NCBI RefSeq assembly: GCF_002835825.1 | Contig: NZ_PIZH01000028.1 | Location: forward strand, 1-11,432 | Origin: Methanoregula sp. | Lineage (GTDB): Archaea; Halobacteriota; Methanomicrobia; Methanomicrobiales; Methanospirillaceae | Direction of reading: 5' to 3' | Length of the DNA stretch: 11,432 nucleotides | Part shown: in pieces, positions 5 through 4,600 of the stretch | Numbering within the stretch: the first letter of the stretch is position 1 | Layout: the number at the start of each line of letters is the position of its first letter | Translations under genes and position numbers: made by a program | The notes under the pieces: model-generated | Database searches by the model: none | Told to the model about the DNA's origin: nothing | Seen by the model: only the letters and a program-made list of their open reading frames with translations

Positions 5-89
5 TGCGAGGAGCCGGATTCGAACCGGCGAACCCCTGCGGGATTAGGCCCTGAACCTAACGCCTTTGACCTGGCTCGGCGATCCTCGC
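5..89 (-). tRNA. tRNA-Leu (anticodon CAG)
   Basis: Read on the minus strand, the 7-bp acceptor stem GCGAGGA/TCCTCGC closes the molecule. The anticodon stem TTAGG/CCTAA holds the loop TTCAGGG, which puts anticodon CAG at plus-strand positions 51-53. The T arm is GCCGG-TTCGAAT-CCGGC. A 14-nt variable region with a CCC/GGG mini-stem makes it a class II tRNA, as expected for leucine. The discriminator base is A (position 5). CCA is not encoded, so it would have to be added after transcription. The gene lies 50 bases downstream of the acyl-CoA synthetase stop on the same strand and appears to have its own promoter. There is no sign of an intron. Confidence 0.95.
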
Positions 90-139: not shown

Positions 140-2002
140 TTACGCCTTCTTCTGGCCGTTCATCTCGTTCTGGTACTTTTTCATCTCCTGATCACGGAGC
201 TCGTTCCTGCGGATTTTACCGGAGATCGTCTTGGGGAGCGATTCGACAAACTCGATTGCACGGGGGTACTTGTACGGTGCGGTCACTTTCTTGACATGGT
301 TCTGGATCTCGCGGATGAGCCCTTCGGACGGGGTGTATCCCGGCTTTAAGATGATGAAGGCCTTGACGATCAGGCCGCGGATATCATCCGGGGACCCGAC
401 AACCGCGGCTTCCTGGACGGCCGGGTGCTCGATTAAGGCGCTCTCGACCTCGAACGGTCCGATACGGTACCCGGAAGCCTTGATCACATCATCGTCCCTG
501 CCAATGAACCAGAGGTAGCCGTCTTCATCCTTGTACGCCTTGTCACCGGTGTAATACCAGTCGCCGATAAAGGATTTTTTGTTCTCCTCGGGATTATTCA
601 GGTACTCGCGGAACATGCCCACGGGGCGGGGATTGCAGCGGATCGCAATCTTGCCCTCCTCATGGAGGGGCACCGGCTTTCCGTTGTCGTCGTGGAGCAC
701 AATCTCCCACCCGGGGGAGGGGCGCCCCATGGAGCCGAACTTCGGCTGCATGCCCGGGAACGTCCCAATGCACAGGACTGTCTCGGTCTGGCCGTACCCC
801 TCGTAAATGGTCAGGCCGGTTGCATCCTTCCATGCCTTGATGACCTCGGGGTTGAGAGGTTCGCCGGCACTGACGCAGTGCCGGAGCTCGGTGAAGTCGA
901 ACTTGTCAAGGTCTGCGAGGATCAGCATCCGGTAGATCGTGGGAGGGACGCAGAACGTGGTGATGCCGTATTTCTCGATTAACGGCAGGATCTCGGTCGC
1001 ATTGAACCTGCCCCGGATATCGTAGACAAAGATGGCCGAACCCTCGATCCACTGACCATAGAACTTGCCCCACGCACTCTTGGCCCATCCGGTATCGGAA
1101 AGGGTCAGGTGGAGATCGGTCGAGCGGAGGTCATGCCAGAACCGTGCCGTGACAATATGCCCGAGGGGGTAACTGTGGTCGTGGACCACCATCTTCGGTT
1201 CGCCCGTGGTGCCGGAGGTGAAGAAGATGACGAGGGGATCGGTGCTTTTTGTCTTCTTCATTCCCGGAAGGGTAACGAGCTTTGCCGAAACCGGTGCCGG
1301 GTAGTCGAGTTCCACCGGGTAACTGATCCACCCGTCGCGTTTCCCGTCTATCAGCATCCGGCAGGTAAGGGACGGGCAGTCTTTCATGATGGCATCAATC
1401 GTATCGGCATGTTCGGTGTCGGTAATGACCATCTTGATGTCCGCGATATTGATGCGGTATTTGAGGTCCTTTTCCGTCAGCATCGTGGGCGCCGGGCAAT
1501 AGACCGCACCGCGTTTGATCAGGGCGATTGTCGCGGTCCACCATTCCGGGATACGGGGGAGCATGATCAGGACGCGGTCTCCCTTGTTGATGCCGTACTT
1601 GATGAACATATTTGCAATCTGGTTTGAGAGACGCATCAGGTCCCAGAAGGTGAATTTCTTCTCTTCGCCTTTCTGGTTCACCCAGATCATCGCAAGCTTG
1701 TTCCGGTCCTTCTGTGCCCAGGCATCGATGACATCGAAGCCGAAGTTAAAAAATTCAGGGACATCGATCCGGAAGTTCTGTGCCATGGTCTCGTAATCGG
1801 GCATGTTATGCTGGTCGGGGGGGAGGCTTTTTCCGGTTGACGGGAGCGTGGCGGAGTTTACCGGCAGTGCACCAGGGATCGTGGAGAGATGGGCCTCGCA
1901 GGCCTCTGTGATCCATTCGGAACGTGACAGCCGTTCCTTTTTGGCAGACACATCGATCGTATCCGCAAGGCTATCATCCATAGTGATAGAATATCGCACC
2001 AT
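140..2002 (-). CDS. AMP-forming acyl-CoA synthetase with N-terminal ribbon-helix-helix domain
   Basis: Predicted 620-residue cytoplasmic enzyme that activates a carboxylic acid with ATP to an acyl-adenylate and then to acyl-CoA, releasing AMP and PPi. All adenylate-forming motifs are present: the phosphate loop TSGTTGEPK (262-270), YEGYGQTET (400-408), YYTGD (483-487), the hinge region GRDDDVIKASGYRIGPFEVE (501-520) and the adenylation lysine K596 in ISGKIRR. The set resembles medium-chain (ACSM-like) synthetases more than classical acetyl-CoA synthetase; the substrate is unknown. Residues 1-40 are extra and fit a CopG/ribbon-helix-helix fold: strand VRYSITMDDSL, helix ADTIDVSAKKERL, turn, then SRSEWITEACEAHL. 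A Pro/Ser-rich linker (41-65) follows. The first strand needs the ATG at 2002, which supports this start. An internal ATG at 1804 (M67) aligns with the start of the neighbouring paralogue but has only C-rich sequence upstream and no ribosome binding site. Confidence 0.9.
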   Translation of the reverse strand: MVRYSITMDDSLADTIDVSAKKERLSRSEWITEACEAHLSTIPGALPVNSATLPSTGKSLPPDQHNMPDYETMAQNFRIDVPEFFNFGFDVIDAWAQKDRNKLAMIWVNQKGEEKKFTFWDLMRLSNQIANMFIKYGINKGDRVLIMLPRIPEWWTATIALIKRGAVYCPAPTMLTEKDLKYRINIADIKMVITDTEHADTIDAIMKDCPSLTCRMLIDGKRDGWISYPVELDYPAPVSAKLVTLPGMKKTKSTDPLVIFFTSGTTGEPKMVVHDHSYPLGHIVTARFWHDLRSTDLHLTLSDTGWAKSAWGKFYGQWIEGSAIFVYDIRGRFNATEILPLIEKYGITTFCVPPTIYRMLILADLDKFDFTELRHCVSAGEPLNPEVIKAWKDATGLTIYEGYGQTETVLCIGTFPGMQPKFGSMGRPSPGWEIVLHDDNGKPVPLHEEGKIAIRCNPRPVGMFREYLNNPEENKKSFIGDWYYTGDKAYKDEDGYLWFIGRDDDVIKASGYRIGPFEVESALIEHPAVQEAAVVGSPDDIRGLIVKAFIILKPGYTPSEGLIREIQNHVKKVTAPYKYPRAIEFVESLPKTISGKIRRNELRDQEMKKYQNEMNGQKKA

Positions 2003-2021
2003 ACTGATCCATTTGGTGGTG

Positions 2022-2034
2022 CACTTATTACGTG
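2022..2034 (-). promoter_or_regulatory. possible TATA/BRE region of the fusion synthetase
   Basis: On the minus strand an A-rich stretch (AAACGAAACACG) leads into TAATAAGTGC, centred about 26 bases upstream of the ATG at 2002. That spacing would fit a leaderless or short-leader mRNA, and no clear ribosome binding site lies before the ATG. The TATA match is weak. Confidence 0.25.
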
Positions 2035-2084
2035 TTTCGTTTTTTTGTGCATCAGATCTTCAGGTTATGGATATTGACACAACC

Positions 2085-2092
2085 AAAAAAAA
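2085..2092 (-). terminator. T8 tract, candidate terminator of the second synthetase
   Basis: Eight consecutive T on the minus strand, about 46 bases after the stop codon at 2138. Archaeal RNA polymerase often terminates on U-rich tracts without a hairpin, so this tract probably separates the transcripts of the two synthetase genes. Confidence 0.45.
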
Positions 2093-2124
2093 TCAGAAAA
2101 TCGGGATAAATTGTTACTGCACCA

Positions 2125-2144
2125 CAAGTAAAAATTGTTACTTG
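2125..2144 (-). repeat. perfect hairpin spanning the stop codon of the second synthetase
   Basis: CAAGTAA (2125-2131) and TTACTTG (2138-2144) are perfectly complementary arms around a 6-nt loop, and the TAA stop of the synthetase lies in one arm. An overlapping direct repeat AAATTGTTACT occurs at 2108-2118 and 2132-2142. The hairpin could stabilise the 3' end of the mRNA or assist termination at the downstream T8 tract. Confidence 0.4.
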
Positions 2145-3805
2145 CTGTTAAGATATTTATTCAGTTCTGCTGCACGGAGTTCATTCCGCTTGATTTTACC
2201 GGAGATCGTCTTGGGAAGTTCGCTGACAAATTCAATCTGCCGGGGATACTTGTAGGGTGCCGTGGTGCGTTTGACATAGGTCTTGATCTCCCGCACCAGC
2301 GATTCCGAGGGTTCGTATCCTTTCTTCAGGACGACAAACGCCTTGACGATCAGTCCGCGGATACGGTCGGGAGACCCGACAACGGCTGCCTCCTGCACGG
2401 CCGGGTGTTCCAGGAGCGCACTCTCGACCTCGAACGGGCCGATACGGTATCCCGAACTCTTGATCACGTCATCGTCACGGCCGACAAACCAGAAGTACCC
2501 GTCATCATCGCGGTACACCTTGTCGCCGGTGTAATACCAGTTGCTGACAAACGACTTCTTGTTCTCTTCCGGATTGTCAAGATACTCGACAAAGAGGCCC
2601 GGCGGGCGGGGCTTGCAGCTGATGGCAAGCCGGCCTTCCTCGTGGTTTCCCAGTGGTTTCCCGTCATCGTCATGTACCTCAATCTTCCATCCCGGCGAGG
2701 GCTTCCCCATGGAGCCGGGGCGGGGTTCGACAGACGGAAACGCGGCAACGCAGCAGCAGGTCTCGGTCTGGCCGTACCCTTCGCAGATGGTCAGTCCCGT
2801 TCCTTCCTTCCACACCCGGATCACTTCCGGGTTCAGGGGTTCACCTGCGCTGGTGCAGTGCCGGAGCGAGGAGAGATCAAACTTCTCAAGGTCCGCAAGA
2901 ATGAGCATCCGGTAAATTGTCGGGGGACAGCAGAATGTGCTCACCTGGTACTTCTCCAGCAGGGGGAGAACCTCGGTTGCCTGGAATTTCCCGGTGAAAT
3001 TGTACACAAAGATGCAGGCGCCTTCAATCCACTGGCCAAAGATCTTGCCCCAGGCGCACTTGGCCCATCCGGTATCCGAGACCGTGAAGTGCAGGTCATT
3101 GTGCTTCACATCCTGCCAGAGCCGGGCAGTCACGATATGTCCCAGAGGGTACCCGTGGTTGTGGAGGACCATCTTGGGCTCTCCCGTTGTGCCGGAGGTG
3201 AAGTAGATGAGCATCGGATCGGTGCTCTTTGTCTTGAGATCGTCAGGGATACTCACGGACCGGTGGGAGACCGGCGCCGGGTAGAGCAGCTCATAGGGGA
3301 AACTTGCCCATCCCGCGAGTTCTCCATCAGCAATCATCCGGGAGGTCAGGGTGGGACACTCGTTGCAGATCTCTTCGACTTTTGCTGCATTCTCGAGATC
3401 GGTGATGACCATGCGGAACTTTCCCTTGTTGATCCGGTACTTGATATCACGGGCTGTCAGCATTGTCGGACAGGGAGCAAATACTGCGCCGAGCTTAATT
3501 AACGCAATGGCGAAAATCCACCACTCGGGGATCCGCGGGAGCATCACGAGTACGCGGTCGCCCTTGTTGATACCGTACTTGAGCAGGATGTTTGCAGCCT
3601 TGTTCGAGAGGTTCTTCAAATCAAGGAAACTGTATTTCTTCTCTTCCCCCTGCTGGTTCACCCAGATCATCGCAAGCTTGTTCCGGTCCTTTTTTGCCCA
3701 GAAATCGATCACGTCAAATCCGAAGTTATAGTATTCTGGCACATCGATGGCGAAGCGTTCGCACATCTTATCATAACTGTCCGTGCCATGAACGGTCTTT
3801 TTCAT
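2138..3805 (-). CDS. AMP-forming acyl-CoA synthetase (medium-chain type)
   Basis: Predicted 555-residue synthetase that converts a carboxylate, ATP and CoA to acyl-CoA, AMP and PPi. Motifs in order: phosphate loop TSGTTGEPK (203-211), EGYGQTET (342-349), YTGD (425-428), hinge GRDDDVIKSSGYRIGPFEVE (442-461) and adenylation lysine K537 in ISGKIKR. It aligns collinearly with residues 67-620 of the downstream neighbour, with the C-terminal third almost identical, so the pair arose by tandem duplication. This copy lacks the ribbon-helix-helix segment and has the usual length for the family. An unusual run of cysteines (CCC, 350-352) follows the EGYGQTET motif, where the paralogue has VLC. No clear ribosome binding site precedes the ATG at 3805; a TATA-like box lies about 48 bases upstream. 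The substrate is not readable from sequence. Confidence 0.92.
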   Translation of the reverse strand: MKKTVHGTDSYDKMCERFAIDVPEYYNFGFDVIDFWAKKDRNKLAMIWVNQQGEEKKYSFLDLKNLSNKAANILLKYGINKGDRVLVMLPRIPEWWIFAIALIKLGAVFAPCPTMLTARDIKYRINKGKFRMVITDLENAAKVEEICNECPTLTSRMIADGELAGWASFPYELLYPAPVSHRSVSIPDDLKTKSTDPMLIYFTSGTTGEPKMVLHNHGYPLGHIVTARLWQDVKHNDLHFTVSDTGWAKCAWGKIFGQWIEGACIFVYNFTGKFQATEVLPLLEKYQVSTFCCPPTIYRMLILADLEKFDLSSLRHCTSAGEPLNPEVIRVWKEGTGLTICEGYGQTETCCCVAAFPSVEPRPGSMGKPSPGWKIEVHDDDGKPLGNHEEGRLAISCKPRPPGLFVEYLDNPEENKKSFVSNWYYTGDKVYRDDDGYFWFVGRDDDVIKSSGYRIGPFEVESALLEHPAVQEAAVVGSPDRIRGLIVKAFVVLKKGYEPSESLVREIKTYVKRTTAPYKYPRQIEFVSELPKTISGKIKRNELRAAELNKYLNSK

Positions 3806-3847
3806 AGAATCGGGAAGAATGTTTTATCCGGTTCTTTTTCAATCTGC

Positions 3848-3858
3848 CTTTTTAAAAT
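3848..3858 (-). promoter_or_regulatory. TATA-like box of the second synthetase
   Basis: The minus strand reads AATTTTAAAAA, the most A/T-rich stretch upstream of the gene. It is centred about 48 bases from the ATG at 3805, which would give a transcript start near 3827 and a leader of about 20 bases. Position and composition are the only evidence. Confidence 0.35.
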
Positions 3859-3869
3859 TCAGGAACAGG

Positions 3870-3881
3870 AGTACCGGTACT
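3870..3881. repeat. perfect 12-bp palindrome in the synthetase/TBP intergenic region
   Basis: AGTACCGGTACT is identical on both strands. It lies about 65 bases upstream of the synthetase ATG and just upstream (in the synthetase direction) of its TATA-like box, a plausible position for a regulator site. It could be chance in a GC-rich intergenic region. Confidence 0.4.
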
Positions 3882-3933
3882 ATACTTCATGCTCTGGCCG
3901 GGAGCACCATCCGTGAAACAGGCGTACCCGGTG

Positions 3934-3953
3934 CGGAGGAATTCATTCCTCCG
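3934..3953. repeat. perfect 9-bp inverted repeat with 2-bp spacer
   Basis: CGGAGGAAT (3934-3942) and ATTCCTCCG (3945-3953) are exact reverse complements separated by TC, a 20-bp dyad about 93 bases upstream of the TATA-binding protein ATG. The short spacer is more typical of an operator for a dimeric regulator than of an RNA hairpin. A second small stem with an A6 loop (CGAC 3957-3960, GTCG 3968-3971) follows directly. It lies in the 240-base divergent promoter region (3806-4045), in which I see no gene. Confidence 0.5.
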
Positions 3954-4009
3954 GGGCGACAAAAAACGTCGGAACAACGTGCAAATGAGAGGACATAAAG
4001 GTTCTCCAT

Positions 4010-4020
4010 TAGTATTATGA
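4010..4020 (+). promoter_or_regulatory. candidate TATA-like box of the TATA-binding protein gene
   Basis: TAGTATTATGA is centred about 31 bases before the ATG at 4046 and would place the transcript start a few bases upstream of the start codon. An alternative A/T-rich box (CATAAAGG, 3994-4001) would give a leader of about 24 bases. Neither is a strong match. Confidence 0.25.
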
Positions 4021-4045
4021 TTCAGAGCACAGCATAGTATAGTGG

Positions 4046-4600
4046 ATGGCTGACAAAAAGTACGCGTCATTGAAAATCGAGAATATCGTAGCTTCCGGCG
4101 TAATTGCCGATTCTATCAATCTTGCAGAAGTCTCGGGCAAGATCAAGAGCTGCGAGCTCAATACCAAGCGGTTCCCGGGTGCGGTCTACCGGATCGAAGA
4201 CCCGAAGATCGCATCCCTGATATTCTCTTCGGGTAAGGTCGTACTGACCGGTATCCGCGACAAGAAAGCACTCACCGACGGCCTTGGCATCATCATCAAG
4301 TCCTTAAAGTCCGCCGGCGTGGACACGTTCAAGGAGCCCAAGGTCGCAATCACCAATATTGTCTGTTCCTATGATATCGGGAAATATATCAACCTCAATA
4401 AAGTGGTCATCACCTTGAACCTGGAGAATATCGAGTACGAGCCTGAACAGTTCCCCGGCCTTGTATACCGCATCAAGGATCCCAAGATCGTTGCGCTCCT
4501 CTTCTCTTCAGGAAAGATCATCCTCACGGGCGGAAAGAACCTTGAGGACATCAAGAAAGGCCTCGACTTCCTCGAGCAGAAGCTCGAGAGCATAATGTAA
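4046..4600 (+). CDS. tbp: TATA-box-binding protein
   Basis: Predicted 184-residue general transcription factor that binds and bends the TATA box and recruits TFB and RNA polymerase. It is built from two direct repeats (about 8-95 and 98-184). Each contains the saddle signatures: ENIVAS with N13 and TNIVCS with N104 (minor-groove asparagines), and the phenylalanine pairs that kink DNA, F43 (RFPG) with F60 (IFSSGK) and F136 (QFPG) with F153 (LFSSGK). Length is normal for archaea, and there is no acidic C-terminal tail. Repeat 1 departs from the usual archaeal pattern: after VLTG it reads IRDKK, where GAKN-like residues are common, and the first helix region (GVIADSINLAEV) is atypical. Repeat 2 keeps the canonical NLENIEYEPEQFPGLVYRI. 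It may therefore be a second, diverged TBP of the organism. It runs convergently to the helicase gene, with 35 bases between stops. Confidence 0.95.
   Translation: MADKKYASLKIENIVASGVIADSINLAEVSGKIKSCELNTKRFPGAVYRIEDPKIASLIFSSGKVVLTGIRDKKALTDGLGIIIKSLKSAGVDTFKEPKVAITNIVCSYDIGKYINLNKVVITLNLENIEYEPEQFPGLVYRIKDPKIVALLFSSGKIILTGGKNLEDIKKGLDFLEQKLESIM

Follow-up and report, generated by a model that had tools for sequence, protein, structure and literature searches.

A ribbon-helix-helix acyl-CoA synthetase fusion of Methanomicrobiales and a candidate operator array at the start of its own gene

The fusion gene and the protein it encodes

The stretch of DNA analysed here (the window) comprises 11,432 nucleotides from Methanoregula sp. 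and carries, on its reverse strand, a gene for a protein in which a ribbon-helix-helix (RHH) segment is joined to an acyl-CoA synthetase (ACS), hereafter RHH-ACS, together with a tandem synthetase paralogue. A tRNA-Leu gene (cag; 5-89, minus strand) lies directly downstream of the fusion gene, and a gene for the TATA-binding protein (TBP; 4046-4600) is divergent from the tandem synthetases, and many related loci have a TBP motif as well. The protein-coding features are the following:

140..2002, minus strand: RHH-acyl-CoA synthetase fusion gene, 620 residues (open reading frame, Pfam, motifs)
1883..2002, minus strand: ribbon-helix-helix segment, residues 1-40 (PF01402, models, Foldseek, conservation)
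1805..1882, minus strand: variable Pro/Ser linker, about residues 41-66, predicted to be disordered (alignment, pLDDT)
143..1804, minus strand: Macs-type acyl-CoA synthetase domain, residues 67-620 (PF00501 and PF13193)
2138..3805, minus strand: tandem paralogous synthetase without the RHH segment and without the array described below (open reading frame, Pfam, promoter scan)

The initial annotation had read the first 40 residues as a complete RHH unit, fused to a synthetase with all catalytic motifs intact and missing from an otherwise similar tandem paralogue, and it had proposed an HMM search of the N-terminal piece as a check; on all these points our data agree with it. A scan of just the N-terminal 66 residues matches residues 5-34 to the RHH_1 family (PF01402) with 24.3 bits, above the cut-off of 20.5; for the full 620-residue protein the score is 19.8 bits, slightly below that cut-off, which may be why automatic annotation overlooks the segment. 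None of 18 homologues retrieved via the RHH segment carries a precomputed RHH label, and those that have a source name go by AMP-binding protein or acetyl-CoA synthetase, an annotation that the present reading, if true, corrects. When the N-termini of 33 relatives were scanned singly, 31 matched RHH_1 at E<=0.01. The AlphaFold2 monomer model, made with 33 sequences, has helices at residues 10-22 and 27-40 after extended residues 2-8, this strand being unpaired in predictions that were of monomers only, and the full-length model keeps both helices, followed by residues 38-59 with pLDDT below 50 and then by the ACS body. The best 50 of 78 Foldseek matches in the PDB (E<=10) are mainly RHH proteins, among them CopG bound to DNA (1ea4, probability 0.98), NikR (3od2, 0.97), Arc, AmrZ and PutA (2jxg); their E-values, 0.35-4.6 and none at or below 0.001, are poor because the 60-residue RHH model is small. 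At the sequence level, the only match of the 66-residue piece among solved structures is a weak one, to an RHH antitoxin (E 0.91).

Ten positions (M1, V2, R3, S5, M8, L12, D17, S26, R27 and S28) are invariant in the 33 N-termini and the linker that follows them is variable, so that translation starting at M67, the alternative raised by the initial annotation, is unlikely. Residues 1-40, in which profile and fold both reveal the beta-alpha-alpha unit that defines the RHH (MetJ/Arc/CopG) superfamily, are thus confirmed as an RHH unit at the level of sequence comparison and structural models. Standalone relatives of the segment amount to six short proteins, two of which are labelled partial by their source.

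RHH-ACS is widespread in one archaeal order, Methanomicrobiales, as the fusion search suggested by the initial annotation has established. Searching GTDB r220 genomes for the pattern MVR[YF]S[VI][TS]MD led to 70 loci, 65 of them with titles that name Methanomicrobiales or member taxa, including Methanoregula, Methanoculleus, Methanogenium, Methanospirillum and Methanomicrobium, and five titled only "Euryarchaeota archaeon". A script found the ACS motif in frame with the RHH segment in 64 of the 70 loci; three loci (L124, L130 and L132) have a variant ACS motif and are fusions when read, in two (L143 and L160) the frame stops at a contig edge, and the sixth is L166, with the broken RHH frame described below. 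The fusion frame of L132 (position 4501; Methanogenium cariaci) ends at 370 residues, perhaps through a frameshift or an assembly error. Strong RHH matches (E<=1.6e-13) occur in 116 of 232 genomes of the class, and a hand count places 110 of these 116 in open frames of 563 or more residues. A single genome with family code f4 has the RHH segment (G132:C5:12741-12857; E 1.9e-21, open frame 652), a possible case of transfer.

The ACS domains and catalytic motifs are intact by Pfam and alignment, and the closest solved structure by sequence is Macs from Methanosarcina acetivorans (3ETC, E 5.5e-179), the match starting at residue 67 of RHH-ACS and leaving residues 1-36 of 3ETC outside. According to PMC10455477, Macs prefers 2-methylbutyrate and with this acid retains the acyl-AMP until CoA arrives, it uses an alternate Trp259 and has a glycine in place of Trp416 of Acs, and in the related Acs the C-terminal domain rotates by about 140 degrees between the half-reactions. 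Both of these active-site features are present in RHH-ACS: Trp259 corresponds to W311 and the glycine, by eye, to G404, positions mapped by hand with a numbering offset of 23 from the 3ETC alignment and motif III and invariant among 48 sequences. The NCBIfam model MbcS (NF047394) scores 532.7 bits, below its equivalog cut-off of 850. Judged by its sequence, the enzyme is of the medium/branched-chain (Macs) type and not a plain acetyl-CoA synthetase, an acetate-specific Acs being disfavoured by the missing Trp416 equivalent, and the resemblance of the active sites suggests 2-methylbutyrate or another branched or medium-chain acid as a candidate substrate.

In five Methanospirillum-type loci (L145, L146, L154, L160 and L162) motifs of 2-oxoacid:ferredoxin oxidoreductase occur just upstream of RHH-ACS on the same strand; no such same-strand motif is present in the other 65 of the 70 loci, and L156 has a single one on the opposite strand. 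The L162 gene set (1576-4407, plus strand) encodes four subunits, all of which match family models; the scores of two exceed the cut-offs and those of the other two fall short. A route from acid through acyl-CoA to 2-oxoacid is plausible.

A candidate operator at the gene start

Comparison of upstream regions brought out a candidate operator at the start of the RHH-ACS gene, which is new here and was found by this comparison, not assumed. In the window its putative elements are:

2049..2054, minus strand: half-site O1, TGATGC here, at about -52 (upstream comparison)
2025..2039, minus strand: presumed promoter core, CGAAA (BRE-like) and CGTAATAA (weak TATA-like), predicted from sequence
2017..2022, minus strand: half-site O2, GCACCA, in the opposite orientation to O1 and O3, at about -20
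1996..2001, minus strand: half-site O3, TGGTGC, within ATGGTGCGA at the gene start
2119..2124, minus strand: a further copy of TGGTGC, some 120 bp before the start codon, noticed by eye in L002 and L003 as well

O3 is formed by the start codon region itself, inside ATGGTGCG, and O1 and O2 flank the promoter core, with O1 directly upstream of the BRE-like element. CGAAA and the A+T stretch between O1 and O2 resemble the archaeal BRE and TATA consensus and are presumed to be these elements; in L062 the core elements between O1 and O2 include TTTATATA, and a TATA-like element is located at about -33 to -26.

The comparison covered 84 distinct upstream stretches, 39 collected separately and 45 from the GTDB pattern scan after 25 duplicates had been dropped, and it includes four interrupted or truncated genes (L132, L143, L160 and L166). 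O2 is exact in 80 of the 84, O3 reads TGGTGC in 76 and TGGTTC in eight, and O1 is TGGTGC in 49; counting up to one mismatch, O1 is present in 77, where shuffled sequences gave 2.4 on average and never more than 8, and in the other seven it has two mismatches. The commonest offsets are 32-33 bp between O1 and O2 (63/84), near three helical turns, and 21 bp between O2 and O3 (47/84), near two. With a stricter pattern, the O1-O2 pair at 30-34 bp is found in 51 of the 84 regions and in none of the shuffles, and, as the 84 sequences are related, all these counts overstate independence.

Such placement of sites, around the core and over the start codon, fits a repressor, and would be compatible with activation too. 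RHH-ACS activating its own promoter, for instance from O1, which directly upstream of the BRE-like element has a possible activator position, is nevertheless unlikely: a protein bound between the TATA region and the first codons, the place of O2 and O3, usually blocks initiation, and these two sites are conserved better than O1.

The array is associated with the fusion and not with the synthetase. Neither the O1-O2 pair nor TGCACCA was found in 39 distinct regions upstream of unfused relatives, the window paralogue included, for each of which about 290 bases were scanned because the true starts are not fixed. Lone hexamers are present upstream of four unfused genes, and the window paralogue, which shares 69% identity with the fusion protein over residues 55-613, is one of them: its promoter (3806-4045) has a lone TGGTGC at -104 and no array, and was rejected as a second target. 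Of the proposal in the initial annotation that the protein may regulate the synthetase genes or others, regulation at its own promoter is therefore the part that gains support, and the paralogue promoter lacks the array. It follows that fragment 2003-2137 should be bound by RHH-ACS and fragment 3806-4045 should not.

Whether O3 is conserved as DNA or as protein was addressed with codon usage in 76 coding sequences, in which 132 conserved columns have degenerate codons. Among these, codon entropy is lowest at Val2, 0.40 bits (GTG 70, GTT 6), by a narrow gap to a Thr column at 0.45 bits, and the second lowest among the 11 Val columns is 1.05 bits. Arg3 is CGA in 67% of the sequences, with at most 20% CGA in the other 13 conserved Arg columns, and its overall codon entropy is the third lowest of the 14; Ser5 codons are free (TCT, TCG, TCC and TCA). 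The bias at Val2 and Arg3 indicates that the O3 word is probably constrained as DNA. It could be argued that GTG/CGA after the start codon reflects a preference in leaderless-mRNA initiation, O1 and O2 being an unrelated promoter feature, since O3 overlaps the start codon and the codon comparison is one of columns within RHH-ACS genes. We give this explanation only a slim chance, as CGA is a rare codon, making up 4.3% of Arg codons in 39 of these genes, and as the same hexamer appears again at O1 and O2 at helical spacings.

Because O2 and O3 are complementary in most loci, one might also suppose an RNA hairpin, in which GCACCA of O2 pairs with UGGUGC of O3 and hides the start codon. In the eight loci where O3 is TGGTTC, however, O2 is never the matching GAACCA, and in five of them, close relatives from the Methanospirillum group, O1 is TGGTTC as well. 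This co-variation of O1 and O3 fits reading by a protein better than a hairpin; moreover, the position of the TATA-like element in L062 would place the RNA start downstream of O2, and O1 would be left unexplained. The hairpin is accordingly the least credible of the explanations weighed here, and very improbable.

Genome-wide specificity and descent of the array

Two profiles were derived from 30 Methanoregula promoters, R1 with 12 coding bases included and R2, built because coding homology could inflate R1, from the 56 non-coding bases only; as both were trained within the genus, matches there are expected, and R1 finds at most one strong site per genome within it. Across 232 genomes at E<=1e-3, 84 of 85 R1 matches fall at RHH-gene starts, the other being a remnant in G026, and outside the genus all 51 do so. 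At the same threshold R2 gave 51 matches, namely 49 RHH-gene starts, the G026 remnant and one other (in G017), with 16 of 16 at RHH-gene starts outside the genus; at E<=0.01 it gave 67, namely 61 own sites, G026 and five others, with 28 own sites among the 30 matches outside the genus. In the 83 RHH-bearing genomes outside the genus, an own site at E<=0.01 was detected in 58 by R1 and in 28 by R2, which overlooks many diverged promoters and whose matches there are fewer and weaker than those of R1. R1 found no own site in the 11 RHH-bearing genomes of genus code g25.

The G026 remnant (L050:1501-1537, contig C95) keeps the operator sequence and first codons after an apparent internal deletion, the first codons running, by eye, straight into what appears to be the C-terminal part of the ACS, and a TBP gene adjoins it. 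The G017 site (L176:941-973, at G017:C1:391840; R2 E 7e-5) is near open frames that look RHH-like by eye. Of the weak second profile matches, the one in G012 is located inside a long open frame and the one in G017 in a stretch without a clear gene call. Among the non-own matches to the exact pattern TGGTGCA-N22-28-TGCACCA, eight loci were inspected besides one in G056: L050 is the G026 remnant, L031, L034 and L035 are inside long open frames, and L032, L033, L036 and L044 received no assignment. In G056 a perfect TGGTGCA-N25-TGCACCA (L175:1019-1061) is found about 70-112 bp upstream of an ilvD-like gene. An ilvD search had matches in 57 of 60 genomes, and only one of the 30 ilvD loci examined has the O1-O2 pair, so the idea of a regulon extending beyond the own gene was dropped. 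The predicted target is almost exclusively the RHH-ACS gene itself.

These results bear on the possibility that a separate regulator owns the sites and that the RHH segment only dimerises or is a passenger. Other RHH-like open frames that match the segment weakly do exist in genomes of the class, and some of them, with 139-205 residues, are about as large as NikR. Yet the array occurs at RHH-bearing genes whatever their ACS branch and its O1-O2 pair at none of the 39 unfused ones, a second R2 site at E<=1e-3 exists in one genome only (G017), and all 33 sequences share R3, S5 and S26-R27-S28 in the strand and helix 2. We regard a separate regulator as quite improbable.

RHH-bearing genes occupy at least three places in a tree built from the ACS part, which requires only three changes of the RHH label. 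A single clade of RHH-bearing genes, that is, a single origin of the fusion on this tree, was rejected by the AU test (p 1.06e-5), which used 69 of 142 sequences picked after the first tree and counted L166 as RHH-bearing; the RHH segment and the putative operator would then have been exchanged together between paralogues, or lost together several times. In L166 (798-884), a single case, the RHH frame is only 29 residues long, with O2 altered to ACACCA, and the broken frame adjoins an ACS 80% identical to that of the window. Taken together, the conserved three-site array is a candidate operator that tracks the RHH segment and not the ACS branch.

A different DNA-binding head is found on other ACS paralogues. 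L062 (447-2318, plus strand) encodes one with an N-terminal HTH_17-like head (Pfam 51.6 bits, cut-off 27), and a TPQEVA motif marks such heads in L136, L143, L155, L158, L167, L168 and L169. Their hosts are Methanomicrobiaceae by title or by family code f2, in most of the eight loci the HTH_17-headed ACS is just upstream of RHH-ACS, and the seven sequences included in the ACS tree form one clade. An HTH_17 head on a neighbouring paralogue suggests that such fusions have been favoured repeatedly.

A proposed circuit and its relation to known systems

We propose that RHH-ACS is an autoregulated trigger enzyme that acts on the three-site array of its own promoter, a reading to which we assign a probability of roughly 0.8. 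The trigger-enzyme idea, already put forward in the initial annotation, gains strong support from the comparative data, in particular from the way the array follows the RHH segment. That the protein represses its own gene is probable, with somewhat less confidence than autoregulation as such, and the same reservation applies to the ligand that it may sense, an acyl substrate, acyl-AMP or CoA.

In the proposed mechanism, RHH units would pair as dimers, with the ACS body holding the register, and bind the three half-sites, which lie upstream of the TFB/TBP region (O1), immediately after it (O2) and across the start codon (O3). Occupied sites would block the pre-initiation complex or the polymerase, so that the free or substrate-poor enzyme represses its own gene. 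Loading of the ACS with acid would lead to an acyl-AMP or thioester-forming state that changes how the RHH dimers are spaced or how available they are, and thereby sets expression. By analogy with Macs and Acs, the large catalytic motion could be the means of changing RHH spacing and the bound acyl-AMP a possible signal; the substrate and the link from catalysis to DNA binding are suggested by analogies with PutA and BirA. A bolder version, which we hold tentatively and at less than even odds, is a one-gene archaeal circuit in which the RHH heads read the catalytic state, acyl-AMP-loaded versus CoA-turning-over, and in which the independently gained HTH_17 head would mark a recurrent regulatory class.

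If RHH-ACS is an autoregulated trigger enzyme, a metabolic enzyme common in Methanomicrobiales is the regulator of its own transcription, and organic-acid supply would be linked to gene expression in a testable manner, with a predicted stretch of DNA on which binding can be assayed directly. Bacteria are known to have trigger enzymes with an RHH domain. For an RHH-ACS fusion, no description was found in open-licence PMC full text.

Among known systems, NikR and CopG share the fold class of the RHH segment according to Foldseek. The strand of RHH-ACS has the R-x-S/T-x-T pattern of NikR, and the 21-bp offset between O2 and O3 resembles the two-turn NikR operator; NikR has a metal-binding domain, whereas RHH-ACS has a catalytic ACS in its place. 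BirA combines an HTH domain with a biotin-AMP ligase; it too is an adenylate-forming enzyme, and it represses the pathway to which it belongs, an acyl-AMP being the co-repressor. Its DNA-binding and catalytic folds are unrelated to those of RHH-ACS, for which an acyl-AMP signal is proposed by analogy only.

The nearest precedent is PutA of E. coli and Salmonella, a metabolic enzyme with an N-terminal RHH domain that is an autogenous transcriptional repressor of its own gene (PMC5293562; PMC5879082). RHH-ACS resembles it in having an N-terminal RHH segment on a metabolic enzyme, and the PutA RHH structure 2jxg ranks 46th in the Foldseek search. However, PutA consists of RHH, proline dehydrogenase and P5C dehydrogenase domains, whereas Pfam gives only RHH_1 and AMP-binding domains for RHH-ACS, whose enzyme is unrelated to that of PutA and whose host and promoter are archaeal. 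Unlike in PutA, the array of RHH-ACS extends over the start codon of the gene itself, this gene is nearly the sole predicted target, and no membrane switch is known for RHH-ACS. RHH-ACS may thus work like PutA but is not PutA, and would represent, if the proposed circuit is correct, an archaeal counterpart assembled from unrelated parts.
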